DNA of 38,382 nt from a virus. How positions within the stretch are numbered: the stretch's first letter is position 1; every line of letters starts with the position of its first letter. Positions 6,048 through 32,860 of the stretch are shown one piece after another. Where the stretch lies: IMG/VR virus record IMGVR_UViG_3300025132_000107, positions 1 through 38,382 of that record. One strand, given 5' to 3'. A model generated the notes under the pieces. That model worked only from the letters and a program-made list of their open reading frames with translations. It ran no database searches and had not been told where the DNA came from. Made by a program: the position numbers and the translations under genes.

Positions 6048-7622
6048 ATGTCGCGTAAGTACGAATCTGGTACGAGTCTCCACCAGAAAATATTAAAGGG
6101 GGCAAATGTTTTAGCGGATAATGTAGCATCCACCTTGGGACCAAGAGGGAGAAATGTCATTCTCCATCACCCAGAACAAATGCCAGTGATCACCAAGGAT
6201 GGTGTAACTGTGGCTAAGTTTGTATCATTCACCGATCCGTTTGAGAACGTAGGCGCTCAGATTATTAAACAAGCCGCCGCCAGAACCAACTCGGAAGCGG
6301 GTGACGGAACCACCACATCGACGGTATTGACGAGAGCAATCTTACAACAGGCTCAAAAATATTTGATGGCAGGCTCTGCGCCCATTGAACTCAAGCGAGG
6401 CATGGACAAAGCAACGGAAAAAATCGTTGAAAACTTGAAAGAGTTAGCAACTCCTATCAAATCGATGGAGGATGTCGCACACATCGCCACTATCTCGGCA
6501 AATAATGATGAGAAGATAGGCAAGCTAATTGCACGCGGCGTAGATCTCGCTGGAAAAGACGGCGCAATCTCCATTCAAGAGGCGCGTTCGCTAGAAACTA
6601 GCCTGGAGGTGGTAGAGGGCTTTCGCTTTAATTCCGGATATTTAGCTAGCGCATTCGTCACAGACGAGAAGCGTGGAGTTGTATCCTATGATGAGCCCAT
6701 TATTCTGGTTACCGACGAGAAGATTGACTCTGTTGATGATATGATGCCAGCATTGGAGATTGCCGCCAGGGAGGGCCGTCCATTTATTATTGTGGCGGAG
6801 AATATCGAAGGTCAAGCCCTTGCAGCCCTCATCATGAATGCTATGCGCGGAACGATGCGAGTAGCTGGCATCAAGGCTCCACGATATGGAGAGGAACGAA
6901 GGAACATCTTAAAAGATTTGGCGTTGTCGGTGGGTGCAACCTTTATTACGCGACAAAACAATCTCAGATTGCGCGACGTAAAACTGACACACTTTGGTAG
7001 GGCTAAAACTATTGAAAGTTCCAAGTCCCTTACGACTATCGTTGGCGGGAAGGGCAGCATGGACGAGGTAGAAAAGCGCATCGATCTTCTCAAAGCGGAG
7101 ATAAAAGAAACAGAATCCCTTTCGGAGTGTGAGAAGATTCAAGAAAGAATTACTCGCTTGGCTAGTGGTATTGCGGTCATCAGGGTTGGTGCAGCCACAG
7201 AAGTAGAGATGATAGAAAAGAAGCACAGAGTGGAGGATGCACTTGAAGCAGTGAATGCGGCCCAACTTGAGGGGATTGTTCCAGGGGGAGGGGTTGCGCT
7301 AATTCGCGCTTCAAGAAACCTGAAGATCAAAACTGATAATCCAGATCAGAAGTTGGGTGCAAAAATTGTATGCGAGGCCGTCAAGGAGCCTTTGCGTCAA
7401 ATGGCGCTGAATGCGGGATATTCTCCTGATATATTAATTTCAATGGTGGAGAAAGCGAAGGGCGATCGTGGCATTGATTTTAATACTGGCAAGCTAACTA
7501 GCTTATTAGAAAAAGGAATTATTGATCCTGCAAAAGTAACACGCTGTGCGGTGCAAAATGCAGTTTCTGTAGCCTCTACTTTAATTACAACTAATTTTGC
7601 CATTATCGAGTCGCCCGACTAG
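6048..7622 (+). CDS. groEL: phage GroEL-like chaperonin
   Basis: This 524-aa protein is colinear with bacterial GroEL and in the normal size range. ATPase signatures present: L-G-P-R-G-R-N-V near residue 30, T-K-D-G-V-T-V-A-K (Asp51, E. coli D52), G-D-G-T-T-T-S-T-V-L (Asp86, E. coli D87), T-E-V-E-M-x-E-K-K-x-R-V-E-D-A (Asp398 equivalent), G-G-G-V-A-L and D-P-A-K-V-T-R. The Gly-Gly-Met C-terminal tail is missing; the protein ends soon after the I-T-T segment. It probably folds capsid or other phage proteins, either with host GroES or without one, since no GroES gene is visible here. It is driven by its own promoter. Confidence 0.95.
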   Translation: MSRKYESGTSLHQKILKGANVLADNVASTLGPRGRNVILHHPEQMPVITKDGVTVAKFVSFTDPFENVGAQIIKQAAARTNSEAGDGTTTSTVLTRAILQQAQKYLMAGSAPIELKRGMDKATEKIVENLKELATPIKSMEDVAHIATISANNDEKIGKLIARGVDLAGKDGAISIQEARSLETSLEVVEGFRFNSGYLASAFVTDEKRGVVSYDEPIILVTDEKIDSVDDMMPALEIAAREGRPFIIVAENIEGQALAALIMNAMRGTMRVAGIKAPRYGEERRNILKDLALSVGATFITRQNNLRLRDVKLTHFGRAKTIESSKSLTTIVGGKGSMDEVEKRIDLLKAEIKETESLSECEKIQERITRLASGIAVIRVGAATEVEMIEKKHRVEDALEAVNAAQLEGIVPGGGVALIRASRNLKIKTDNPDQKLGAKIVCEAVKEPLRQMALNAGYSPDILISMVEKAKGDRGIDFNTGKLTSLLEKGIIDPAKVTRCAVQNAVSVASTLITTNFAIIESPD

Positions 7623-7975: not shown

Positions 7976-8299
7976 ATGCGAGTAAATGTTGCATACTCAG
8001 TAGATCTTTCTGAACTGAAGCAAATCGTTCAGGAGCTTTTACTGAAAGTGGAAGATGAAGTGGAGAACGTTAATGGGCTTTTTACCAAAGTTCAACAAAG
8101 CGTCAGTCGAGAGCAAGAAGAAAAAGCTATCAAACTTATTGAAGAGTGTCGCGCAAGTATTGCCAAGGTAGATCACTCCCTGTTTGATTCTTTTAATATT
8201 TTGAGCGGGTTACAACGCGCGAACGTGCAAATACGCAACGCCGAAGCGGCAAAAAAAGCACAAGAGAAAAAAGAGGGGAGCCATGCTGAAGGTGGGTGA
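7976..8299 (+). CDS. hypothetical coiled-coil protein
   Basis: This 107-aa helical protein has heptad-like stretches (residues 10-45 and 55-100) and a K/E-rich tail (A-A-K-K-A-Q-E-K-K-E). First gene after its promoter; its end overlaps the next gene by 17 nt. Family not recognised. Confidence 0.6.
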   Translation: MRVNVAYSVDLSELKQIVQELLLKVEDEVENVNGLFTKVQQSVSREQEEKAIKLIEECRASIAKVDHSLFDSFNILSGLQRANVQIRNAEAAKKAQEKKEGSHAEGG

Positions 8300-10626: not shown

Positions 10627-11319
10627 ATGACAACAGGTGTGAAAGCTAAATATCTTTTTTTGGCCTTCATACCTTACTGTATCGTTTACTTTCTTTTTCA
10701 GACGGGGTTTATACCCAACGAGTACGACCTTTTAATAGATCTTGATACTAAAATTCCTTTTGTGGCTGAGTTCGTTTGGATATACCACACGTTAATTCCA
10801 GTCCTCGCCTTCACTGGCTTTATGCTTTTTCGCGACAAGAAATTATTCTCGTTAATGACGTATGGAAATCTGGCAGCAGGCATCGTTCTTTGTATTTTCT
10901 ATGTGCTTGTTCCATCTTATTATCCTCGCGAGGCACATGGTGCAATAGACACAAGCACTTTGTCTGGCTACCTTGTTGAGCTAACCAGAAGTATTGATGG
11001 TGCCAACAATACCTTCCCTTCAGGGCACGTAACTTTTTCATGGCTCATGGCGTATTTTGTGAGCCTCTCGGAAGTTGGCAGAAAGCATTTAAGCGTTACG
11101 CTGGCTTATTTTTGCTGGGCGACCTTGATCGCTATCTCCACCCTCACTTTGAAACAGCACTACTTATTTGATGTGGCGTCTGGCATCGGGCTGGCATCTA
11201 TTATTTTTTATATATCTCGCAGAGTATATTTATTTCGCAGCATTTCGGAGCTAGTTACTAAAGATGTTGAATTCATACCCTCAAGAACTTCTACAGCAGA
11301 AGTGTCAGTTGATTGTTGA
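10627..11319 (+). CDS. PAP2-family membrane phosphatase/phosphotransferase
   Basis: This 230-aa protein has about six hydrophobic segments and a GGGAGG SD. The family's C2 motif is F-P-S-G-H (residues 130-134, His134) and the C3 histidine/aspartate unit is Q-H-Y-L-F-D (His178, Asp182). The classical C1 K-x6-R-P is not obvious; the arrangement resembles the inositol-phosphotransferase-type branch (H-Y-x-x-D). Such enzymes act on lipid phosphates at the outer face of the membrane. This gene is unusual in a phage and might alter envelope lipids or undecaprenyl phosphate supply. Confidence 0.75.
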   Translation: MTTGVKAKYLFLAFIPYCIVYFLFQTGFIPNEYDLLIDLDTKIPFVAEFVWIYHTLIPVLAFTGFMLFRDKKLFSLMTYGNLAAGIVLCIFYVLVPSYYPREAHGAIDTSTLSGYLVELTRSIDGANNTFPSGHVTFSWLMAYFVSLSEVGRKHLSVTLAYFCWATLIAISTLTLKQHYLFDVASGIGLASIIFYISRRVYLFRSISELVTKDVEFIPSRTSTAEVSVDC

Positions 11320-11851
11320 AGAAATTTTAAAGCAGAATTATGTTAAGTTTGGGGTTGAGGATTTTCTTTTGAGAGAGTCAGACCAAACCCAAATTGAATG
11401 CAGCCTTTGTTTTTCTAATGATTGGAAAGACATCCTTATTCAAGGTGCTGGTGACGGACCCGTGGATGCTCTTTATACAGCGATGGTCAAACATTTTTCC
11501 CCCACATTTGTTTCACTCAAGAATGTTTTTTTTGATGACTTCGTAATGAAGGTGGATTTCAAAAAGACCGCCCGAAAGTCGGCTGCGCCCGTGTGTATTA
11601 AATTATCCCTCAAGAACCATAGCGAGCGCAATATATTCTTTTCTGCTCAGTCTCACTCGATGGTGGGTGCCTCTACGGCAGTCGTTATAGGCGCGTGCGA
11701 ATATTTAATAAACGCGGAGATGGCCTTTGTAGAGTTAAAGCGATTGATTGCAGACGCTCGGAAGCGTAGCAGGATCGACCTGGTGGATAAATATGTGGAG
11801 AAGATGGTTTCGTTGGTTGGAATTGCTACTTACGAGGAGATTGCAAATTAA
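11264..11851 (+). CDS. orphan LeuA-type allosteric (2-isopropylmalate synthase C-terminal) domain protein
   Basis: This 195-aa protein overlaps the PAP2 gene by 56 nt; a TTG at 11309 is an alternative start. Residues about 45-160 follow the LeuA dimer/regulatory domain: two strands, then G-A-G-D-G-P-V-D-A-L-Y-T-A-M (family G-x-G-P-V-D-A-x-x-x-A-L), S-L-K-N-V-F, a strand pair, and S-M-V-G-A-S-T-A-V-V-I-G-A-C-E-Y-L (family helix after D-I-I-x-A-S). The catalytic TIM barrel is absent. In LeuA this domain senses leucine; here it could bind an amino acid or interfere with a host synthase. Confidence 0.6.
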   Translation: MLNSYPQELLQQKCQLIVEEILKQNYVKFGVEDFLLRESDQTQIECSLCFSNDWKDILIQGAGDGPVDALYTAMVKHFSPTFVSLKNVFFDDFVMKVDFKKTARKSAAPVCIKLSLKNHSERNIFFSAQSHSMVGASTAVVIGACEYLINAEMAFVELKRLIADARKRSRIDLVDKYVEKMVSLVGIATYEEIAN

Positions 11852-11854
11852 TAC

Positions 11855-11883
11855 TTGACAGGGGCATATTTTTGTGATAGGAT
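11855..11883 (+). promoter_or_regulatory. possible weak promoter
   Basis: TTGACA, 17 nt, TAGGAT (4 of 6 in the -10), just after the LeuA-domain stop. A TTG inside the -35 could be mistaken for the start of the next gene. Confidence 0.4.
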
Positions 11884-11902: not shown

Positions 11903-12091
11903 TTGAAGATAGGTGACCTAGTTGAACCGTATGATAAATTTATGGTGGATAACACTTACTATGGAGTCGGTGTAATTTTGGACAGATATGAAACCGAGGA
12001 TGGAATTATTTATTTTGAAGTTCAGTGGGCACATGCGCGACAGTGGTTTGGTCAAGATGAAATGCGGGTGGTGAGTGAAAGTGGCCGATAA
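11903..12091 (+). CDS. K-V-G-D-L-V family small protein, TTG start
   Basis: The TTG start is chosen because it gives (M)-K-I-G-D-L-V-E, the exact family N-terminus, with GGAG 11 nt upstream. This 62-aa product continues with G-V-G-V-I-L, a variable loop and F-E-V-Q-W, and ends R-V-V-S-E-S-G-R, close to the E-S-R terminus of the main array. Its end overlaps the next member's GTG by 17 nt. Confidence 0.65.
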   Translation: MKIGDLVEPYDKFMVDNTYYGVGVILDRYETEDGIIYFEVQWAHARQWFGQDEMRVVSESGR

Positions 12092-12344
12092 AGTTAATCA
12101 GGATTTGAAAGTGGGGGACGTTGTTAGGATGACAAATTCTAAAGAATCTTCTACAAATTACGGAATAGTAACGCGATTGGCCCATAGCCTCTCTACTTAT
12201 GCCGCGTTCAGATGTATTGGTGACGTACAAGTTATCAATGTCCTGTGGGCAGGCTCCTCTTCCCCCTCCAGGATGGATGTTAGTGCATTGAGAGGTGGGG
12301 CAGTGGAGGTCGTGCGCTGGGACGAGACTGAAGGCGATCAATGA
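12075..12344 (+). CDS. K-V-G-D-L-V family small protein
   Basis: This 89-aa protein has a GTG start giving M-K-V-A-D-K-V, followed a few residues later by L-K-V-G-D-V-V-R-M. The family start appears twice, as if two starts were merged. G-I-V-T-R and V-L-W-A strands follow. An internal TTG at 12105 is an alternative start. The stop overlaps the next ATG (ATGA). Confidence 0.65.
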   Translation: MKVADKVNQDLKVGDVVRMTNSKESSTNYGIVTRLAHSLSTYAAFRCIGDVQVINVLWAGSSSPSRMDVSALRGGAVEVVRWDETEGDQ

Positions 12345-12547
12345 AGGTAGGCGATTTAGTTAAAGTGTACGACCCAGATGAAGATCAACTAGACGGCACC
12401 CCATACTGGACAATGGGGGTGATACTCAAAGTTGAGAAGAAGTCTAAAACCGTCATGAGCAATCGAATTTTCACTATTCATGCAGAGGGGCATGAGATGG
12501 TCTTTGACGAGCCCTTTTGGGCTGTCTCGCTGGTTAATTCAGCTTAA
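12341..12547 (+). CDS. K-V-G-D-L-V family small protein
   Basis: This 68-aa protein begins M-K-V-G-D-L-V-K-V-Y, then T-M-G-V-I-L-K-V, a K/S-rich loop, F-T-I-H and a final F-W-A-V-S. This fits five short strands of an SH3/KOW-type barrel (inferred). It lacks the E-S-R end and closes this first cluster. Confidence 0.7.
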   Translation: MKVGDLVKVYDPDEDQLDGTPYWTMGVILKVEKKSKTVMSNRIFTIHAEGHEMVFDEPFWAVSLVNSA

Positions 12548-12921: not shown

Positions 12922-13137
12922 ATGAAAATTGGCGACTTGGTTAAGTTTGATTACATTCACCGGGAGGCAACAAGCCTAAACAACAAGGTGGGTGTTTTTT
13001 TGGGGGATCGCCCTATCAATCGCCCTGACGGCGTTGTGGTTAATAATTTCGCCGTCTGGATGTTGCATGACGGTATGGAACACATATGTGACAGAGGTGT
13101 GATGAGGTGGGTGACAAAAATCGACATGGAAAGTTAA
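12922..13137 (+). CDS. K-V-G-D-L-V family small protein
   Basis: This 71-aa protein begins M-K-I-G-D-L-V-K-F and shows K-V-G-V-F-L-G and F-A-V-W-M-L-H-D-G-M-E, the family strand pattern. The last residues, V-T-K-I-D-M-E-S, replace the L-E-V-I-N-E-S-R end. It stands alone downstream of the candidate structured RNA and may be controlled by it. Confidence 0.7.
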   Translation: MKIGDLVKFDYIHREATSLNNKVGVFLGDRPINRPDGVVVNNFAVWMLHDGMEHICDRGVMRWVTKIDMES

Positions 13138-13216: not shown

Positions 13217-13870
13217 ATGAAGAATACAACAGAACTAATCGACAGAATTACCAACGCTCTGGACACCCACACAAAGCATAATACTTTGTCTGATTGGGGG
13301 GTTGGATTTTGTGAATCCCTGCTTGATCAACTTGACCGAGGCCGTCGATTATCTGACAAGCAACTGTCCGCCCTCGCGAAAATTGAGAGGAAATGCACCG
13401 CTGAAGCTATCGAGGTATCACTTCACTGGGGTGAAACATACAAAGAGAAGCACCGCGCCGATGCACTCATTTGCGCCACTTACTACAAGAATGTTGGATA
13501 CTTTGTCGGCCTCGCAACTCGCATTTTGGAGGAGGAAACATTTGTCCCACCGCGTCAGGCTTTCGAGAAGATGACGGGCAACAAATATGCTCAAACTGTT
13601 TTGGCCACCTCCAAGGCTGCGCCGAAGTACCCTGTTGGAAGTGACGTAGAATTTCGACGCCCTGCGCTTGGTTATCGCACGCGCCACCTAGAGGGCACAC
13701 CCTGCTTGGTCCTAGAGGTGTTCTCGGAAGTTATCAGCGCAGCCAAGGGCGCGAAGCAGTACAGCATTCTTCCTTACGGTGGGGTTAAGCCTTTAGTTGT
13801 AGAGGAGCGCCACATTAAGAAGTGTCGGTACAAGAAGGCGGTTAAAAAGACCGAAGAGATCCCTTTTTAA
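13217..13870 (+). CDS. hypothetical protein with C-terminal SH3-like segment
   Basis: This 217-aa protein starts at the ATG after GACGGAG; an in-frame TTG at 13187 lies before the transcription start. Residues 15-45 contain F-C-E-S-L-L-D-Q-L-D-R-G-R-R-L-S, a helix pair seen at the ends of many phage replication-associated proteins. Around residues 140-185, Y-P-V-G-S-D-V-E-F-R-R and C-L-V-L-E-V-F-S resemble the K-V-G-D-L-V fold. The tail is lysine-rich. It could bind nucleic acid; not assigned. Confidence 0.6.
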   Translation: MKNTTELIDRITNALDTHTKHNTLSDWGVGFCESLLDQLDRGRRLSDKQLSALAKIERKCTAEAIEVSLHWGETYKEKHRADALICATYYKNVGYFVGLATRILEEETFVPPRQAFEKMTGNKYAQTVLATSKAAPKYPVGSDVEFRRPALGYRTRHLEGTPCLVLEVFSEVISAAKGAKQYSILPYGGVKPLVVEERHIKKCRYKKAVKKTEEIPF

Positions 13871-13972: not shown

Positions 13973-15055
13973 ATGGCAATCGATTTCAAAACTTTCCTCT
14001 CTTGTGCGCCGCACGTTATTGCAGTTCGCAAGCCTATCCTTCTTCGTGGTCGTCATGGAGTTGGCAAGTCTGAAGTTGTCTATCAGGTAGCTGAAAACAT
14101 GAGCTTGCCCGTTGTTGAGCGCCGCGCCTCTCAAATGACGGAGGGTGACTTGCTGGGGATGCCCTCGCCTGAATTGGTTGAGGTCAATGGAGAGCAGGCT
14201 TCTGTCTTCCGTCCGTTTGCATGGCTGATCCAGGCTTGCACTGAGCCAGTCGTCCTCTTTCTCGACGAGGTAGACCGCGCAACCCAAGAGGTGCGCCAGG
14301 GTATCTTCGAGCTAACTGATAGTCGCAAGATTGCCGGTTGGACTCTGCACACAGATACAATCGTTATTGCTGCCGTCAATGGTGGCGAGCATGGCGACCA
14401 GTACCAAGTGAACGAGATGGACCCCGCAGAACTCGATCGATACACCGTGTTCGATGTCGAGCCTTCGGTCGAAGATTGGCTGGAGTGGGGCAAGGATAGC
14501 GTGGCTGGCATTGTCTGGGACTTCATTAACCAGAATCGCCTGCACCTTGAACACAAGGACGACTATGAGCCCAACAAGGTGTACCCTTCCCGTCGTTCTT
14601 GGAAGCGACTAAACGACTGCCTTGACAACTCAGGACTCCTAAAGGAGTCGTCACCGCTTCTTTTCAACCTGGCCACTAGCTTTGTTGGCTTCGAGGCAGC
14701 GGTTGCATTCAATGACTTCGTAAAGAACTACGAGCGAGTTGTAACCACTGAGGACATCCTGGTGCACGGCAAGGTGGATGCCACCTCTAAGTTCGACCTT
14801 AACGAACACTGCGCCCTCATTGAGAAGATGGAGGCCGAGGACACCTTCAAGCGTGAACTCACTGACACTGAAATTCAGCACCTTGCCGACTACGCAGTTT
14901 CCCTTCCCTCTGAAGCGTTCATGAAGATGTGGCAACTCATTGGCCAGGGCGACGTACTAGAAAACACAAAGCGCCTGCATATGGCGACCTCTGTGACTGG
15001 GGTGCGAGTCTCTTCATACATTGTCGAAGTTCTCACAGGTAATAAACAAGATTAG
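13973..15055 (+). CDS. MoxR-like AAA+ ATPase
   Basis: This 360-aa protein has Walker A G-R-H-G-V-G-K-S (26-33), M-T-E-G-D-L-L-G (the MoxR pre-Walker B segment), Walker B V-V-L-F-L-D-E-V-D-R (93-102), sensor 1 A-A-V-N (Asn136) and E-L-D-R-Y-T (Arg156, finger region). The helical C-terminal part is specific to this subfamily. MoxR ATPases remodel partners together with VWA proteins, one of which follows immediately. Codons here are richer in C/G third positions than in the 28-38 kb region, perhaps for strong expression. A terminator follows. Confidence 0.85.
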   Translation: MAIDFKTFLSCAPHVIAVRKPILLRGRHGVGKSEVVYQVAENMSLPVVERRASQMTEGDLLGMPSPELVEVNGEQASVFRPFAWLIQACTEPVVLFLDEVDRATQEVRQGIFELTDSRKIAGWTLHTDTIVIAAVNGGEHGDQYQVNEMDPAELDRYTVFDVEPSVEDWLEWGKDSVAGIVWDFINQNRLHLEHKDDYEPNKVYPSRRSWKRLNDCLDNSGLLKESSPLLFNLATSFVGFEAAVAFNDFVKNYERVVTTEDILVHGKVDATSKFDLNEHCALIEKMEAEDTFKRELTDTEIQHLADYAVSLPSEAFMKMWQLIGQGDVLENTKRLHMATSVTGVRVSSYIVEVLTGNKQD

Positions 15056-15059
15056 TCAA

Positions 15060-15101
15060 TGGGGCCTTTCGCAAAAAAAAAGCAAAAGGCCCCACTTTTT
15101 T
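15060..15101 (+). terminator. Rho-independent terminator after MoxR-like gene
   Basis: A perfect 10-bp stem, TGGGGCCTTT with AAAGGCCCCA, with a 15-nt A-rich loop, then C and TTTTTT. The T-tract abuts the next -35 box, so termination and re-initiation are packed into about 70 nt. Confidence 0.9.
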
Positions 15102-15102
15102 C

Positions 15103-15131
15103 TTGACAATCCTGCAATCCTGTGAGATAAT
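15103..15131 (+). promoter_or_regulatory. promoter for the metallopeptidase/VWA gene
   Basis: TTGACA, 17 nt, GATAAT with TG extension. The predicted +1 (7 nt after the -10) coincides with the A of the ATG at 15138, leaving no room for an SD. Confidence 0.85.
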
Positions 15132-15137
15132 ATACGT

Positions 15138-16385
15138 ATGAATAAGACAAGTACAACTTTTGATCTGAATATGCACACTGCTCGCTTGTTGATGCAGGAG
15201 CCCTTCTTTGCCTCTCTTAGCCGCCGCGTAACCAAGGCCGCTAGCACCGCTATTCCCACTGCTGGTGTGCGCGTGAACCCTGACACTGCTCGGTTTGAGA
15301 TGCTTTACAATCCCAGCTTCTTCGAGAGTCTCGCGGATGAAGAGCGCACTGCTGTTCTTATTCACGAGTTCTATCACTTGATCTTTCAGCATGTGACTGA
15401 TCGCAAGCCCTGGACAGGTCAGGACGTGAAGCCCAAAGAAGCAAAGCTATGGAATATTGCGTGCGACCTGTCAATCAACTCGCACATCAAGAACTTGCCA
15501 GCTATGGCTTGCAAGCCAGGTGTCGGCCCTTTTGAGGAATTTCCAGTAAACCTTTCGGCTGAAGCATACTTGAACCTTCTCAAGAAGAAGCAGGAGGAGA
15601 AGGAGCAGGAAGATGAGCAGGGCAAGGACAAGGGCGAAGGCTCTGAAAGTGGTTCAGGGCAAGGTTCCGAAGAGGGCGACGGAATGCCAGAGGACTCCTT
15701 CGACAGTCACGATGCTTGGGGTGAGGGCGATAGTGCTTCCACTGATATTGCACGAGAGCGAGTGAAAGAATATCTGAAAGAAGCCGCCAAGGATGCACAG
15801 AACTCTGGCAGCGGCTGGGGTAGTGTTACAAGCCCGATGCAGCGTGAGATCTTAGAGAGACTCTCGACCAAGGTGGACTGGAAAAAGGTTCTGCGCTACT
15901 TTGTTAAGACTTCACGCCGCGCATCTAAGCGCAGCACTGTGAAGCGCCTCAATAAGCGTTACGCCTACATTCATGCAGGCAAGAAGGTAACGCGGAGAGC
16001 CAATATCGCTATCAGCATCGACCAAAGCGGCTCTGTCAGCGATCACATGCTTGCCGCTTTCTTCAGTGAACTCAACAAGTTAGCCAAGCTGGCAGAGTTT
16101 ACCGTTATTCCATTTGACGATCGTGTCTTCGAGGAGAAGATTTATGTTTGGAAGCAGGGCGAGAACAAGAAGTGGGAACGTGTACTCTGTGGGGGCACTA
16201 ACTTTGATGCACCCACTGAATACGTCAACAAGCACGGGTTCGATGGACACATTGTCCTCACCGACATGCTCGCTCCAAAGCCAAAAGCTAGCAAGTGTCA
16301 GCGCATGTGGATGACGACTACTTACTACGCCAACCGCCCTTACTTCAAAACCAATGAGCGCATCTTAGCAATCGATTGTGAGTAA
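15138..16385 (+). CDS. HExxH metallopeptidase-like/VWA domain protein (MoxR partner)
   Basis: This 415-aa protein has an N-terminal DUF2201-type zinc metallopeptidase-like domain with H-E-F-Y-H (residues 76-80), a further His85 and W-N-I-A-C-D-L-S-I-N (Asp110, likely ligand). A low-complexity E/G/S/D linker covers about 150-205. The C-terminal VWA-like domain has a MIDAS-type D-Q-S-G-S-V-S (295-301), a G-G-T motif and H-I-V-L-T-D-M. MoxR plus VWA pairs act as metal- or protein-remodelling machines in bacteria. The phage target is unknown: it could be an assembly factor, a host-takeover protease or an anti-defence module. The start seems leaderless; the next in-frame ATGs (15171, 15192) have no better SD. 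Confidence 0.85.
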   Translation: MNKTSTTFDLNMHTARLLMQEPFFASLSRRVTKAASTAIPTAGVRVNPDTARFEMLYNPSFFESLADEERTAVLIHEFYHLIFQHVTDRKPWTGQDVKPKEAKLWNIACDLSINSHIKNLPAMACKPGVGPFEEFPVNLSAEAYLNLLKKKQEEKEQEDEQGKDKGEGSESGSGQGSEEGDGMPEDSFDSHDAWGEGDSASTDIARERVKEYLKEAAKDAQNSGSGWGSVTSPMQREILERLSTKVDWKKVLRYFVKTSRRASKRSTVKRLNKRYAYIHAGKKVTRRANIAISIDQSGSVSDHMLAAFFSELNKLAKLAEFTVIPFDDRVFEEKIYVWKQGENKKWERVLCGGTNFDAPTEYVNKHGFDGHIVLTDMLAPKPKASKCQRMWMTTTYYANRPYFKTNERILAIDCE

Positions 16386-16391
16386 AAATTG

Positions 16392-16420
16392 TTGACAAAC
16401 CTAGAATTTTATGAGATAAT
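16392..16420 (+). promoter_or_regulatory. accessory-region promoter
   Basis: TTGACA, 17 nt, GATAAT with TG extension. A short leader carries AAGGAG before the TTG start of the zinc-knuckle gene. Confidence 0.85.
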
Positions 16421-16447: not shown

Positions 16448-17077
16448 TTGAGCTATCGTCAAGTGTACTGTGGGTGGTGTCACAAGAAAGGCCACAACGT
16501 TAGGACTTGCCCTGACCGCAAACTTTGGATTGAAAAAAATCCAGACAGTGAAGAAGCCAGGGTAGAAAAGATGCGTAAACCAAACACAAGCACCCGGAAG
16601 TGCTCCTACTGCAAAGAGGCGGGGCACACCCGTCGTACTTGCTCCAGGCTCAAAAGCGATCGTATTATGCTGCGTGAGAGAATTAAGAATCAGCGCGAGC
16701 GTGTAGCACAGGTTTTGCTCGATAGGGGCATCGGCGTTGGGTCTTTGGTTAGGATGCAGGAGGGATACTGGGATCCCGTTTTCTTTTGCGGGTGGCTCGA
16801 AAAGATTGTGTGGTCCCAAAGCGATCGAACTTCAAACGTGAAGGTTGTTGTTCGACGCCTCAGAGATAATAAAGAGTACCATCGAGAGGTAGACCTGGAG
16901 AGGGACGACACCGCGTACAACGCCTTGTGGATCGAGTCGCGAGTTCCAGAGGACTGCATACTTCCAACTTTTCCAGCCTCATGGAAGTCTGGCTCTGACT
17001 TCAACGAAGATAAATACTTACCCAAAGGCGAAAAGCGACCTTGGCATCTTGATGATCCTGACTTTGTGGTGACTTGA
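16448..17077 (+). CDS. double CCHC zinc-knuckle protein
   Basis: This 209-aa protein has a TTG start with AAGGAG. Two C-x2-C-x4-H-x4-C knuckles are intact: C8, C11, H16, C21 and C52, C55, H60, C65, each with the G-H and aromatic/basic residues typical of nucleic-acid-binding knuckles. A basic helix follows. Residues about 92-160 (G-V-G-S-L-V-R-M, then V-K-V-V-V-R-R-L) resemble the K-V-G-D-L-V barrel, so this may be an RNA- or DNA-binding fusion. CCHC knuckles are common in retroviruses and eukaryotes and unusual in phages. It leads the operon that contains the cassette array. Confidence 0.75.
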   Translation: MSYRQVYCGWCHKKGHNVRTCPDRKLWIEKNPDSEEARVEKMRKPNTSTRKCSYCKEAGHTRRTCSRLKSDRIMLRERIKNQRERVAQVLLDRGIGVGSLVRMQEGYWDPVFFCGWLEKIVWSQSDRTSNVKVVVRRLRDNKEYHREVDLERDDTAYNALWIESRVPEDCILPTFPASWKSGSDFNEDKYLPKGEKRPWHLDDPDFVVT

Positions 17078-17080
17078 GAA

Positions 17081-17290
17081 ATGAAGGTGGGCGACTGGGT
17101 GAAAGTAAAGCGAACTCTAGGGCATGAGGGCGCAACTGGACTGATTGTAGCCAAAGGCCAAGGAGGCGAAGAGCCTGGAGAGGGTTGGTACAAAAGTTCA
17201 TGGATCTACTTTGACGTGTTAGTTGATGAAACACAAAAGACCATTCGGTGCCTGGAAGAAGACTTGGAGGTAATCAGTGAAAGTCGGTGA
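17081..17290 (+). CDS. K-V-G-D-L-V cassette protein, unit 1
   Basis: This 69-aa protein begins M-K-V-G-D-W-V-K-V and has G-L-I-V-A, F-D-V-L-V-D and the conserved end L-E-V-I-S-E-S-R. The last codons contain GGAGGT and the next GTG, so the unit initiates its successor. The variable body (G-H-E-G-A-T, G-G-E-E-P-G-E-G-W) is unlike its neighbours. Proposed five-strand SH3/KOW-like barrel; ligand unknown. Confidence 0.8.
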   Translation: MKVGDWVKVKRTLGHEGATGLIVAKGQGGEEPGEGWYKSSWIYFDVLVDETQKTIRCLEEDLEVISESR

Positions 17291-17444
17291 TACAGTAAAG
17301 GCAGTCTGGTCAGATGGTCTAGAGATTGTCGGAAAATACGTTGGCGATGAGCAGGGATACGTGATCTTGCTGGATGAGAACCAAAACAGGATCGTATGTA
17401 ACACTTCAAGCGTAACATTTGAGGTTATCAATGAAAGTCGGTGA
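17277..17444 (+). CDS. K-V-G-D-L-V cassette protein, unit 2
   Basis: A GTG start inside the previous gene gives a 55-aa protein, M-K-V-G-D-T-V-K-A-V to F-E-V-I-N-E-S-R. The body has E-I-V-G-K-Y-V-G-D and Y-V-I-L-L-D. Among the shortest units; overlaps both neighbours by 14 nt. Confidence 0.75.
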   Translation: MKVGDTVKAVWSDGLEIVGKYVGDEQGYVILLDENQNRIVCNTSSVTFEVINESR

Positions 17445-17595
17445 TTTAGTTAAGCGTGCTCACGGTCGAGGATTCTATCAGATTCTGGAAATTTACAGAA
17501 ACCAACATAATGCGCCTCGTGTATCTGTTTTAAACTTGTGGACTGGCACCGTCTTGATCGACATTCGACCATCACACGTAAAGGTTTTGAACTAA
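17431..17595 (+). CDS. K-V-G-D-L-V cassette protein, unit 3
   Basis: This 54-aa protein begins M-K-V-G-D-L-V-K-R and has Y-Q-I-L-E-I-Y-R, V-S-V-L-N-L-W-T-G and ends H-V-K-V-L-N. Here the E-S-R joint is lost and the stop overlaps the next ATG only as TAATG, a simplified junction. Confidence 0.75.
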   Translation: MKVGDLVKRAHGRGFYQILEIYRNQHNAPRVSVLNLWTGTVLIDIRPSHVKVLN

Positions 17596-17765
17596 TGAAG
17601 GTGGGCGATTTGGTAAAATGGTGCGGACCCGGCCCAGAAATTGTTGGCATCATTACGGACAAGACATCCATTGGTTGGTTTCGCGTCAACTGGATCTCAG
17701 GAGGCACCGTCGAATTCACGAGAGAGCCCGCTATGCACCTGGAGGTAATCGGTGAAAGTCGGTGA
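17595..17765 (+). CDS. K-V-G-D-L-V cassette protein, unit 4
   Basis: This 56-aa protein begins M-K-V-G-D-L-V-K-W and has E-I-V-G-I-I-T-D-K, F-R-V-N-W-I-S-G-G and the end L-E-V-I-G-E-S-R. An in-frame upstream ATG at 17538 would add residues that no other unit has, so it is not used. The GTG of unit 5 lies in its last codons. Confidence 0.75.
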   Translation: MKVGDLVKWCGPGPEIVGIITDKTSIGWFRVNWISGGTVEFTREPAMHLEVIGESR

Positions 17766-17928
17766 TCTAGTAAAGCACACTGGTGTCGATTCGCTTGGGG
17801 TGGGCGTCGTGACTGGCGTTTCGACTGCCCTGGTGACCGAAAGGCTAACCGCGATGGTCTTGTGGCCTCACTTCCGCGACCCAACTTTGGAGGTCGCATC
17901 GATGCTAGAAATTGTAAGTAAAAAGTGA
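17752..17928 (+). CDS. K-V-G-D-L-V cassette protein, unit 5
   Basis: This 58-aa protein (GTG start) begins M-K-V-G-D-L-V-K-H-T and has G-V-G-V-V-T-G-V and A-M-V-L-W-P-H. It ends L-E-I-V-S-K-K rather than the E-S-R joint. The last unit before a promoter. Confidence 0.75.
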   Translation: MKVGDLVKHTGVDSLGVGVVTGVSTALVTERLTAMVLWPHFRDPTLEVASMLEIVSKK

Positions 17929-17937
17929 AAAAAGTTC

Positions 17938-17966
17938 TTGACAAATTCATTCTCCTGTGAGATAAT
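17938..17966 (+). promoter_or_regulatory. accessory-region promoter, copy 1
   Basis: TTGACA, 17 nt, GATAAT with TG extension; six nt later ATAAAGTTGGAGG combines the +1 element and SD. Near-identical to the promoter 514 bp downstream. Confidence 0.85.
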
Positions 17967-17990
17967 GTTTACATAAAGTTGGAGGTCAAG

Positions 17991-18185
17991 GTGGAAAAAA
18001 ATGGAATTATGGTGGGCGATTTAGTTCGCGGCTTTCTTACTGAGCAAGTTGGTATCGTACTTGCGAAGGATGCACTAGAGGGGCATTGGGATCAACTCCA
18101 CGTCCTTTGGACTACCCAGGGCATTTCCATGTTTGGTCCCGGCACACAAGAATGGATCTCCTCCCAAAGTGTGGACGCAATATAG
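17991..18185 (+). CDS. K-V-G-D-L-V family protein, unit 6
   Basis: I chose the GTG 5 nt after GGAGG; the product is M-E-K-N-G-I-M-V-G-D-L-V-R-G. An ATG at 18009 would begin directly at M-V-G-D-L-V. The body (V-G-I-V-L-A, L-H-V-L-W-T-T-Q-G) matches the family. The stop is immediately followed by the GIY-YIG start. Confidence 0.7.
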   Translation: MEKNGIMVGDLVRGFLTEQVGIVLAKDALEGHWDQLHVLWTTQGISMFGPGTQEWISSQSVDAI

Positions 18186-18455
18186 ATGGCAACCAGGCAT
18201 TGGTATCTATACGTCGTCAAGTGCAGGGATACGACCCTTTACACTGGCATCACCACCGACCTAAAGCGCCGATTGCAGGAACACAACACGAGCAGCAAGG
18301 GCTCAAAATACACACGCACTCGTCGCCCTGTTACATTGGTATATCAACAGGCGCATCGTAATCGGTCGGAAGCACAGAAAGCAGAATATGCTTTTAAGCG
18401 ATTAACGAAACAGCAGAAGATAGAAATAATCAAAAAAAGTGAAAAAAGTTCTTGA
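18186..18455 (+). CDS. GIY-YIG nuclease domain protein (YhbQ/UPF0213-like)
   Basis: This 89-aa protein has W-Y-L-Y-V-V-K-C followed by L-Y-T-G-I-T-T-D-L-K-R-R-L (the GIY and YIG equivalents with the catalytic Arg), H-N, G-S-K-Y-T-R and the conserved Glu in Q-K-A-E-Y-A-F-K. Length and order match single-domain bacterial YhbQ-like proteins rather than large homing endonucleases. It may process DNA, or may have helped move or duplicate the surrounding cassettes. Confidence 0.85.
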   Translation: MATRHWYLYVVKCRDTTLYTGITTDLKRRLQEHNTSSKGSKYTRTRRPVTLVYQQAHRNRSEAQKAEYAFKRLTKQQKIEIIKKSEKSS

Positions 18456-18480
18456 CAAATTCATTCTCCCGTGAGATAAT
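18452..18480 (+). promoter_or_regulatory. accessory-region promoter, copy 2
   Basis: TTGACA, 17 nt, GATAAT, then six nt and ATAAAGTTGGGAG. Second copy of the 63-bp promoter repeat; it begins inside the GIY-YIG stop region. Confidence 0.85.
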
Positions 18481-18504
18481 GTTTACATAAAGTTGGGAGA
18501 CAAA

Positions 18505-18585
18505 ATGTTACTTAAAGGTATTATCATTCTTGGGTGTCAAGCCTTAGCATGTTTGGTGTTGATACGCTTTCTTGGAGGAAAATAA
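18505..18585 (+). CDS. 26-aa membrane peptide
   Basis: M-L-L-K-G-I-I-I-L-G-C, a hydrophobic run and R-F-L-G-G-K. The SD GGGAG lies 7 nt upstream. The stop abuts the next cassette ATG, and its last codons provide the GGAGG SD for it. Confidence 0.45.
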   Translation: MLLKGIIILGCQALACLVLIRFLGGK

Positions 18586-18804
18586 ATGAAAGTCGGTGAT
18601 TTAGTAAAATTGAAGAGGCCAACGACTAGGGATTATGCTAGCAAGGCTTTTGTCGTAACAGAAACACACACTCCAAGCGCAGGCTCGGTGGCTACATGGG
18701 GTGACGAATGGTCCCTCTGGATCAAGCTGGCTGCCCCAGAAGGTTCTTATTTGTCTGGCTGGACTTCAGCTTCAGACTATGAGGTGATCAATGAAAGTCG
18801 GTGA
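18586..18804 (+). CDS. K-V-G-D-L-V cassette protein, unit 7 (duplicate A)
   Basis: This 72-aa protein begins M-K-V-G-D-L-V-K-L-K-R-P and has K-A-F-V-V-T-E-T, W-S-L-W-I-K-L and ends Y-E-V-I-N-E-S-R. It is identical to unit 9 except for one residue (Pro versus Gln in A-x-E-G-S-Y). Confidence 0.8.
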   Translation: MKVGDLVKLKRPTTRDYASKAFVVTETHTPSAGSVATWGDEWSLWIKLAAPEGSYLSGWTSASDYEVINESR

Positions 18805-18961
18805 TTTAGTTGTACAGCTAGGATGGGAAGCAGACGGCGCAGGCATTGTAACTAAAATATGGAATGCTGGCGGCGAGCAGAATTATGCTGCGGTTCAGTG
18901 GCCGCAAGGCGCCTGCGACATGGAATGGAATCAGTTGAAGGTGATCAATGAAAGTCGGTGA
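18791..18961 (+). CDS. K-V-G-D-L-V cassette protein, unit 8
   Basis: This 56-aa protein begins M-K-V-G-D-L-V-V-Q-L and has G-A-G-I-V-T-K-I, A-A-V-Q-W-P-Q-G and ends L-K-V-I-N-E-S-R. It overlaps both neighbours by 14 nt and is enclosed by the two copies of the duplicated unit. Confidence 0.75.
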   Translation: MKVGDLVVQLGWEADGAGIVTKIWNAGGEQNYAAVQWPQGACDMEWNQLKVINESR

Positions 18962-19166
18962 TTTAGTAAAATTGAAGAGGCCAACGACTAGGGATTATGC
19001 TAGCAAGGCTTTTGTCGTAACAGAAACACATACTCCAAGCGCAGGCTCGGTGGCTACATGGGGTGACGAATGGTCCCTCTGGATCAAGCTGGCTGCCCAA
19101 GAAGGTTCTTATTTGTCTGGCTGGACTTCAGCTTCAGACTATGAGGTGATCAATGAAAGTCGGTGA
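18948..19166 (+). CDS. K-V-G-D-L-V cassette protein, unit 9 (duplicate B)
   Basis: This 72-aa protein is the near-identical copy of unit 7. The single amino acid change and one silent change imply a recent event or ongoing gene conversion. It overlaps both neighbours by 14 nt. Confidence 0.8.
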   Translation: MKVGDLVKLKRPTTRDYASKAFVVTETHTPSAGSVATWGDEWSLWIKLAAQEGSYLSGWTSASDYEVINESR

Positions 19167-19353
19167 TTTAGTGCAGCTTCAGGACGGAACACGTATGCAC
19201 TGGAACTTGTCTACAGGCATCGCCCTCCTGACTAAGAAACTACCAAGGAATGATTCTCTTGAATATGATTGGAAGGTCTTGGTCGATGGTCGATATATCG
19301 AGCTTGGCAGACAACTCGAACAATCGTCGGAGGTAATCAGTGAAAGTCGGTGA
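19153..19353 (+). CDS. K-V-G-D-L-V cassette protein, unit 10
   Basis: This 66-aa protein begins M-K-V-G-D-L-V-Q-L-Q and has T-G-I-A-L-L-T-K-K-L-P, W-K-V-L-V-D-G-R and ends S-E-V-I-S-E-S-R. T-K-K-L-P is shared with unit 11, so these two are closer to each other than to the rest. Confidence 0.8.
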   Translation: MKVGDLVQLQDGTRMHWNLSTGIALLTKKLPRNDSLEYDWKVLVDGRYIELGRQLEQSSEVISESR

Positions 19354-19552
19354 TTTAGTTAAAATAGTTGAATACGCTTCGCGCCACACCCCTCTAGGTA
19401 CAATGGGGATAGTCACCAAGAAGCTACCCAAACCCTTTCAGCATAGGATTTATCACCAGTGCTATGAGGTTCAATTTGACAACGGCTATCTGGGTCGTCA
19501 TGCCAATTTTTGTTTAGAAGTTATAAGTGAGGCCAAGGAGGGCCTAGAATAA
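19340..19552 (+). CDS. K-V-G-D-L-V cassette protein, unit 11 (last)
   Basis: This 70-aa protein (GTG start) begins M-K-V-G-D-L-V-K-I-V and has G-I-V-T-K-K-L-P, Y-E-V-Q-F-D-N-G-Y and L-E-V-I-S-E-A-K-E-G-L-E. The terminal joint has decayed (E-A-K instead of E-S-R) and the next, unrelated gene starts at TAATG. Confidence 0.8.
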   Translation: MKVGDLVKIVEYASRHTPLGTMGIVTKKLPKPFQHRIYHQCYEVQFDNGYLGRHANFCLEVISEAKEGLE

Positions 19553-22115: not shown

Positions 22116-22253
22116 ATGGAATTATCAGACATTCTTGGAGCCGTGGGCATATTTATTCTATGTCTCTCGGTTAGTTCATTGACCATGTACGTATTGCACA
22201 AGCTAGACAAGCGAGAACAAGAGCGTTACCTAGAGGAGAGGAAGAAAAAATGA
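22116..22253 (+). CDS. 45-aa single-helix membrane protein
   Basis: M-E-L-S-D then a hydrophobic helix of about 20 residues and a charged tail (D-K-R-E-Q-E-R-Y-L-E-E-R-K-K-K). The stop overlaps the next K-V-G-D-L-V start (ATGA), and its tail codons supply the SD. Confidence 0.55.
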   Translation: MELSDILGAVGIFILCLSVSSLTMYVLHKLDKREQERYLEERKKK

Positions 22254-22468
22254 AAGTAGGCGACCTCGTGGAGTTATCCCAGAAAGGTCGCGATACCCTT
22301 TGGTGTAAGAAGTTTCGCGACATGGTTGGGATCATAACAGAGATGGAGGAGAGGACTTCTATCGATGACCCTCGCACCATGCTAGCTTATTACACCGTAA
22401 TGTTCACAGGAAGGAAGGGTAACCGTCAACAGACCCGAATTCCGCGCTCTTATTTGAAGTACGTGTGA
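22250..22468 (+). CDS. K-V-G-D-L-V family small protein
   Basis: This 72-aa protein begins M-K-V-G-D-L-V-E-L-S and has V-G-I-I-T-E-M, Y-T-V-M-F-T-G and a basic end (R-I-P-R-S-Y-L-K-Y-V). An isolated member outside the main array, coupled to a membrane peptide. Confidence 0.7.
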   Translation: MKVGDLVELSQKGRDTLWCKKFRDMVGIITEMEERTSIDDPRTMLAYYTVMFTGRKGNRQQTRIPRSYLKYV

Positions 22469-28766: not shown

Positions 28767-28839
28767 GGGCCCATAGCTCAGCGGTCAGAGCTGCCGGCTC
28801 ATAACCGGTAGGTCCCTGGTTCAAATCCAGGTGGGCCCA
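28767..28839 (+). tRNA. tRNA with CAU anticodon (Ile2 or Met)
   Basis: 73 nt with a full cloverleaf: acceptor GGGCCCA/TGGGCCC, D arm GCTC/GAGC, anticodon arm GCCGG/CCGGT (one wobble) with loop CTCATAA, and T arm CCTGG/CCAGG with TTCAAAT. Discriminator A; no CCA encoded. The overall sequence resembles bacterial tRNA-Ile2 (CAU, read as AUA after lysidine modification) more than elongator Met, and flanking genes use ATA often. The identity remains uncertain. Confidence 0.9.
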
Positions 28840-28860
28840 CTTAACACAAAGGTAAAGAAG

Positions 28861-31424: not shown

Positions 31425-31643
31425 ATGAAATGGGAAACCAAAGATAAGCTACAAAAGACCGGAATGGTTTTATTTATTATCGGCTTTGTGGCGATCGTAG
31501 GGTGGGGGTATGAAAATTGTCAACGCTCTGTAGTTAAAAAAGCTATATACAATGGCTGGGGGGCCACTGCTGAAGGGATATGCAATAAACTATCCAGCAA
31601 GACGTGCTTCCGTAGCTCAGTTGGTAGAGCAGCTGATTTGTAA
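31425..31643 (+). CDS. small membrane protein overlapping the tRNA-Thr gene
   Basis: This protein is 72 aa from the ATG; a GTG at 31413 is possible. A 21-aa ORF (31363-31428) ending at the same ATG as ATGA could couple to it. One membrane helix (M-V-L-F-I-I-G-F-V-A-I-V-G-W-G). The last 12 codons (C-F-R-S-S-V-G-R-A-A-D-L) are simply tRNA sequence read as protein, and the stop is the TAA of the anticodon loop. Confidence 0.45.
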   Translation: MKWETKDKLQKTGMVLFIIGFVAIVGWGYENCQRSVVKKAIYNGWGATAEGICNKLSSKTCFRSSVGRAADL

Positions 31644-31678
31644 TCAGCAGGTCGTCAGTTCAAGTCTGACCGGAAGCT
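31606..31678 (+). tRNA. tRNA-Thr (UGU)
   Basis: 73 nt: acceptor GCTTCCG/CGGAAGC, D arm GCTC/GAGC, anticodon arm GCTGA/TCAGC with loop TTTGTAA (anticodon TGT), T arm GTCAG/CTGAC with TTCAAGT. Discriminator T, no CCA. It would help read ACA codons, frequent in this AT-rich block. Confidence 0.95.
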
Positions 31679-32656: not shown

Positions 32657-32860
32657 ATGAAGGTTCCGGAATTTCAAATTGGAGACATGGTGCAGTTTGA
32701 TTCTTATGAAAATGTAGTAGGAATTGTAATTGACATTAAGGAGTCAGTAAGCTTTGAGCCGCGCGAAGCAATAAGGGATATTTTAGTGTGCTGGTCAAAT
32801 GGTCATATATTTTGGTGCCTAGACTTTACTTTAATACTCCTTTCTAAAAAAGAAAACTAA
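32657..32860 (+). CDS. K-V-G-D-L-V-like family protein, divergent
   Basis: This 67-aa protein begins M-K-V-P-E-F-Q-I-G-D-M-V-Q-F-D-S and has V-V-G-I-V-I-D-I, I-L-V-C-W-S-N-G-H and L-D-F-T-L-I. Same strand order as the array proteins with a five-residue shift of the G-D-x-V. The only member in the late-like block, just after the terminator. Confidence 0.6.
   Translation: MKVPEFQIGDMVQFDSYENVVGIVIDIKESVSFEPREAIRDILVCWSNGHIFWCLDFTLILLSKKEN

Follow-up and report, generated by a model that had tools for sequence, protein, structure and literature searches.

The small genes at positions 17081–19552 of the virus record IMGVR_UViG_3300025132_000107, which we analysed over its whole length of 38,382 bases (the window), are best explained as belonging to a marine phage of the T4 type and forming a modular, integrase-free cassette array, encoding early and probably host-directed barrel proteins that would be shuffled at a dual-coding connector; we put the probability of this reading at about 0.7. 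A preliminary description of this DNA had noticed eleven adjacent genes with a common start (KVGDLV) and, usually, a common end. All eleven are present at these coordinates (Table 1) with 54–72 amino acids (aa), but their adjacency is broken once, between 17979–18185 and 18586, by a GIY-YIG gene (18186–18455) and an open reading frame (ORF) of 26 aa (18505–18585). The constant C-terminus, which had been taken as a feature of the proteins, only reflects where the next gene starts and is no protein motif of its own: the end LEVI[N/S]ESR is the +1-frame reading of the ribosome binding site and start codon of the next gene (GGAGGTNATCARTGAAAGTCGGTGA).

The connector is a 14-nt overlap with stop, Shine-Dalgarno (SD) site and start in one sequence. 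Seven joints in the window read ...GAGGTNATCA[A/G]TGAAAGTCGGTGAT, with AAGG or CGG variants, which gives E-V-I-[N/S/G]-E-S-R-stop in the upstream frame and, one base later, [M/V]-K-V-G-D. ESR ends are present in seven of the eleven units (17081, 17277, 17595, 18586, 18791, 18948 and 19153), and all seven overlap the next unit by 14 nt, compared to none of the other four. We counted 26 occurrences of the start motif ATGAAAGTNGGNGA in the window (at most two mismatches) against 4.7 ± 2.0 in shuffled sequences, and 36 stretches from contigs of IMG/VR contain the exact 30-base joint. Among the 865 units that we collected from IMG/VR loci the 14-nt overlap is the commonest arrangement (386 units), and 91% of the overlapping units have ESR/EGR/ENR-type ends versus 5% of those with no unit downstream; wherever an ESR end has no recorded overlap, it is followed by an overlapping start missed by the search pattern or by a truncated unit, or the stretch ends there. 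Where the next gene starts with M/V-Q-V-G-D the end is ASR instead of ESR, a rule also seen in L176, a contig outside IMG/VR, and one ASR end precedes V-R-V-G-D. In gene bodies GGT makes up 29% of the glycine codons and GTC 19% of the valine codons. In loci from a codon-degenerate scan in which the tested codon positions were left free, the values are 43% and 34% for isolated units and 100% and 78% for overlapping heads, a bias of the overlapping heads that confirms a constraint beyond the protein. At all overlapping junctions the next unit lies in the +1 frame, as would be expected if programmed +1 frameshifting at CGG-UGA fused the units into a polyprotein; however, such frameshifting would need neither the ATG or GTG present at 384 of 384 overlapping starts nor the SD-like sequence found upstream of 85% of them (14% for random stretches within units), and we consider it very improbable. 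Degenerate connectors were also observed at 12329–12367 and 12050–12097 in stand-alone family members upstream of the array, e.g. RVVSESGR followed by GTGAAAGTGGCCGA, and are possibly remnants of an older array.

In our model each cassette is one gene for a predicted KOW/SH3-like barrel of 50–75 residues. Its first 14 nt ([A/G]TG AAA GTC GGT GA) provide its own start and, when read from the preceding base, also terminate the previous cassette, and the last codons of the upstream cassette (GAG GTN ATC A) act as the SD site. As stop, SD site and start share the connector, any pair of cassettes should stay correctly terminated and translationally coupled, and the connector likely lets any cassette follow any other with the recombinants remaining expressed.

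The units fall into about 634 cassette types when clustered on their middles only at 50% identity, which replaced a single-linkage clustering at 35% that had merged 614 units, and 5–33 units are present per contig. Strong turnover of the array content between related phages, as foreseen in the preliminary description, was indeed found, and the opposite outcome of arrays without turnover did not hold: where both contigs of a pair hold six units or more, 91% of the pairs have no type in common, and only three of 28 pairs of same-type cassettes (at least 90% aa identity, different loci) have the same type of downstream neighbour, compared to 38 of 39 for non-family genes and ten of ten for small ones in the same loci. 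The type of cassette 2, for example, is also present in L044 and L127. In 66 cases nucleotide identity is about 0.9 inside the cassettes but drops to chance level at the joints that flank them. Cross-contig matches not conditioned on whole units have a median length of 190 nt, and 80% of their 5′ ends and 74% of their 3′ ends lie at most 30 nt from a unit start versus 29% expected. Cassettes of 50–90% identity are scattered too. Recent duplicates occur inside contigs, as for the units 18586 and 18948, which represent a one-cassette duplication (217 of 219 nt identical) with the repeat terminating inside the joint; otherwise each type is distinct within an array. As read from these assemblies, phages exchange the cassettes one by one, and the breakpoints lie at the connector. 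The earlier terms 'hypervariable' and 'diversifying' should therefore be rephrased: the types are conserved within themselves, and with no reverse transcriptase found in 13 records, the diversity comes from shuffling of many distinct types and not from hypermutation. When bacterial genomes were scanned for the head pattern, most matches were due to chance, and a true array was present only on L176. This array (L176:2400–3500) lies on contig PAQX01000001.1, binned as a marine Deltaproteobacteria genome, and L176 is probably a phage contig in a bacterial bin.

From these sequences we infer that the short connector itself may be a site of homologous recombination (UvsX/RecA or annealing type) during co-infection, and RecA/UvsX-type recombinases are encoded in 11 of 13 records. 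In the pair L022_10993/L036_801 identity breaks exactly at ATGAAAGTC, although an overlap precedes one copy and a non-coding spacer the other, and in L022_10416/L036_554 identity extends through the 3′ spacer as far as the next head. Both cases indicate that breakpoints track the head sequence and not gene ends as such, and breaks at heads after non-coding spacers favour connector homology driving the exchange over selection keeping those exchanges that are located at the connector. Many phage mosaics break at gene ends, and ordinary illegitimate recombination followed by selection would keep the connector only for double coding and translation and not as a homology site; in line with this, conservation of the head relaxes in the absence of an overlap, meaning that a translation or coding constraint suffices for the sequence conservation. 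The breakpoints of the two pairs above speak against this explanation, which we regard as the less likely one.

The array also behaves like those of integrons, being a string of single-gene cassettes with lost synteny, and there are reports of phages with integrons (PMC9892861). However, neither a tyrosine recombinase (PF00589) nor a reverse transcriptase (PF00078) was found in the 13 records (0/13 each, positive controls), seven of which are longer than 150 kb. No attC-like structure could be detected at six joints, where folding was no better than for shuffled sequences (z −2.0 to 0.3), and there is no intergenic space either. Because the defining enzymes were not found in these 13 records we reject integrons and diversity-generating retroelements, and we see hardly any probability for a site-specific recombinase system here, whether similar to integrons or not. 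The nearest known shuffling device is the promoter/stem-loop cassettes (PeSLs) of T4-type phages (Arbiol 2010; Comeau 2014, via PMC4503421), for which our comparison draws on the citing paper and on general knowledge. According to these, PeSLs share with the present case the T4-type phages, the many small early genes and a gene-by-gene shuffling ascribed to short intergenic repeats, but they are intergenic promoter-terminator elements, whereas here the repeat lies inside the coding ends. At the cassette joints of the window neither a promoter call nor a stem-loop was obtained, and promoters are found only between blocks. Similar to our array, the 'ORFanage' of cyanophage S-PM2 is an accessory region of small ORFs with little synteny across metagenomes, for which its authors found shuffling without a mechanism and judged PeSLs unlikely, but an array of the KVGDLV type is not described there (PMC4503421).

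The encoded proteins are under purifying selection within each type, with a median ratio of nonsynonymous to synonymous substitutions (dN/dS) of 0.20 (189 pairs). The units are thus neither decayed nor hypermutated, and the other refuting outcome named in the preliminary description, that of decayed copies, did not hold either. One iterated profile covers 802 of the 865 units. That they are SH3/KOW-like single-domain barrels, as had been suggested, is supported by an AlphaFold2 model of one unit (cassette 4), which predicts a five-stranded SH3-like barrel (predicted local distance difference test, pLDDT, 93.7; strands 6–9, 17–25, 28–35, 38–45 and 49–53). Among many SH3-like barrels its closest solved folds are the KOW domains of Spt5/NusG (Z 8.5–9.4), and the family profile shows a weak match to NusG (E 1e-3). 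The Pfam KOW family PF00467 is matched by only two of 110 members (best E 0.003), and Pfam and PHROGs searches of single units gave nothing above threshold. A tblastn search against 50,697 phage records, for which we used a consensus of the family, one actual unit and a concatenate of 1,248 aa, resulted only in a weak Streptomyces phage match (E 1), a DNA search with the first 8 kb of the window gave no match, and our literature search on the KVGDLV motif or overlapping-cassette arrays revealed nothing on point. The net charge (mean −0.45, sd 4.1) gives no suggestion of DNA mimicry. Alternatively, the cassettes might duplicate selfishly or neutrally and be of no use to the phage, which would fit their high copy number, the recent duplicates within contigs and the GIY-YIG gene inside the array. 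The purifying selection, the confidently predicted common fold and the distinct types within each array all argue against this, making it quite improbable.

Regarding their function, the predicted barrel is free-standing here in contrast to NusG/Spt5, and function is not transferable from such a fold. T4 MotB offers an analogy of kind, with no membership claimed: it is an early protein with a predicted KOW domain and an effect on fitness that binds DNA and alters H-NS binding, but it has an additional C-terminal OB fold (PMC7827196), whereas the units are predicted as a single barrel. MotB is also a single conserved gene and not an array. By this analogy the units may be early factors binding nucleic acid or a host protein, with a repertoire that would differ in each phage. 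Repeated near-consensus sigma70 promoters with a TG before the −10 element and a 17-nt spacer precede blocks of small genes across the region; thirteen have at least 10 of 12 consensus bases and one more is located at 11855, all on the + strand, which by comparison with T4 suggests early expression by the host RNA polymerase. Host takeover or anti-defence would be plausible roles in view of the turnover and of promoters of the early type. The proposed affiliation to T4-type phages is based on the capsid protein Gp23, present in all ten tested related contigs of at least 107 kb, and the VWA-like protein of the window is 57–63% identical to its counterparts in nine Gp23-bearing contigs.

Several points weigh against the proposed cassette array and its shuffling. 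The 38-kb record of the window, possibly a fragment, lacks Gp23. The contigs are short-read assemblies in which a repeated junction could in principle be misjoined, but misassembly is an insufficient explanation because cassettes of only 50–90% identity are scattered as well. Furthermore, the unit pairs are non-independent, the shared tract of about 14–25 nt is short for a RecA-type exchange, and the surviving breakpoints could lie at gene ends through nothing more than selection for intact units. Finally, a barrel fold, here a modelled one, does not give function.

Outside the array, eight stand-alone members had been named, of which six (11903, 12075/12105, 12341, 12922, 22250 and 32657) are recovered by the family profile with E-values from 2e-9 to 4e-4. 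The profile gives no support for the other two, at 8283 (E 0.13) and 26365 (E 4). Similar segments had also been seen inside the proteins at 13217, 16448 and 20132, none of which is matched by the family profile; the segment at 16448 is supported by an AlphaFold2 model of this protein, which predicts a barrel with the same topology as the units. Both of its CCHC knuckles are invariant, its homologues lie at most 1 kb from units in 26 loci, and it has no match in the phage records. The GIY-YIG gene is free-standing and flanked by near-identical promoter copies (17920–18010 and 18434–18524; 86%), and eight further loci of our set contain homologues, most of them close to arrays. A gene for a MoxR-type ATPase followed by the VWA-like metallopeptidase-like gene (13973–16385) forms a pair that recurs near arrays in many loci. 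The window also encodes a GroEL (6048–7622), about 44% identical to the nearest chaperonins of phage records, a protein (11264–11851) that weakly matches the allosteric dimerisation domain of LeuA (PF08502, E 5e-5, just below the cut-off) and, as the only Rfam hits, tRNA-Met(cat) (28767–28840) and tRNA-Thr(tgt) (31606–31678).

Table 1: Features of the array and its surroundings in the window (E, E-value of the family profile unless a Pfam family is named).
Feature	Position	Strand	Remarks
Cassette 1	17081–17290	+	69 aa; C-terminus LEVISESR; E 1.5e-15
Cassette 2	17277–17444	+	55 aa; GTG start; E 3.5e-4
Cassette 3	17431–17595	+	54 aa; without ESR end; 1-nt overlap with next unit; E 2.3e-6
Cassette 4	17595–17765	+	56 aa; AlphaFold2-modelled unit, pLDDT 93.7; E 2.6e-15
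Cassette 5	17752–17928	+	58 aa; ends first block; E 4e-12
Cassette 6	17979–18185	+	family domain from about 18009; E 9e-6
GIY-YIG endonuclease-like gene within array	18186–18455	+	PF01541, E 1.8e-17
Cassette 7	18586–18804	+	72 aa; E 5e-11
Cassette 8	18791–18961	+	56 aa; E 4e-16
Cassette 9	18948–19166	+	near-identical to cassette 7 (217/219 nt)
Cassette 10	19153–19353	+	66 aa; type shared with nine other units
Cassette 11	19340–19552	+	70 aa; last of array; without ESR end; E 5e-12
Connector 1	17277–17290	+	14-nt stop/start overlap
Connector 2	17431–17444	+	14-nt stop/start overlap
Connector 3	17752–17765	+	14-nt stop/start overlap
Connector 4	18791–18804	+	14-nt stop/start overlap
Connector 5	18948–18961	+	14-nt stop/start overlap
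Connector 6	19153–19166	+	14-nt stop/start overlap
Connector 7	19340–19353	+	14-nt stop/start overlap
Sigma70-like extended −10 promoter	16392–16420	+	before zinc-knuckle gene and array; 11/12 consensus bases
Sigma70-like promoter	17938–17966	+	before cassette 6; repeat family D4/D9
Sigma70-like promoter	18452–18480	+	before second block
Repeated sigma70 promoters	13156, 13900, 15103, 16392, 17938, 18452, 19713, 22541, 23376, 24057, 24592	+	
Stand-alone member	11903–12091	+	profile-supported; degenerate connector at end
Stand-alone member	12105–12344	+	profile-supported; ORF opens at 12075
Stand-alone member	12341–12547	+	profile-supported
Stand-alone member	12922–13137	+	profile-supported
Stand-alone member	22250–22468	+	profile-supported
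Stand-alone member	32657–32860	+	profile-supported
Two CCHC zinc knuckles, long helix and predicted SH3-like barrel (residues about 98–165)	16448–17077	+	AlphaFold2 pLDDT 92

In summary, our analysis bears on how phages might trade single small early genes without breaking their expression, with the joint visible at base resolution. More tentatively, and at somewhat less than even odds, we envisage a recombinase-free cassette system in which the dual-coding overlap of stop, SD site and start would serve as universal connector, with exchange of single genes during co-infection giving each phage its own set of single-domain effectors against host targets. For annotators it is a warning that a shared C-terminal 'motif' may be the start of the next gene in another frame. 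Although large uncultured phages from the sea carry the family in abundance, it is unmatched among the phage records searched, and its hundreds of small predicted barrel proteins are candidates for host-directed functions.

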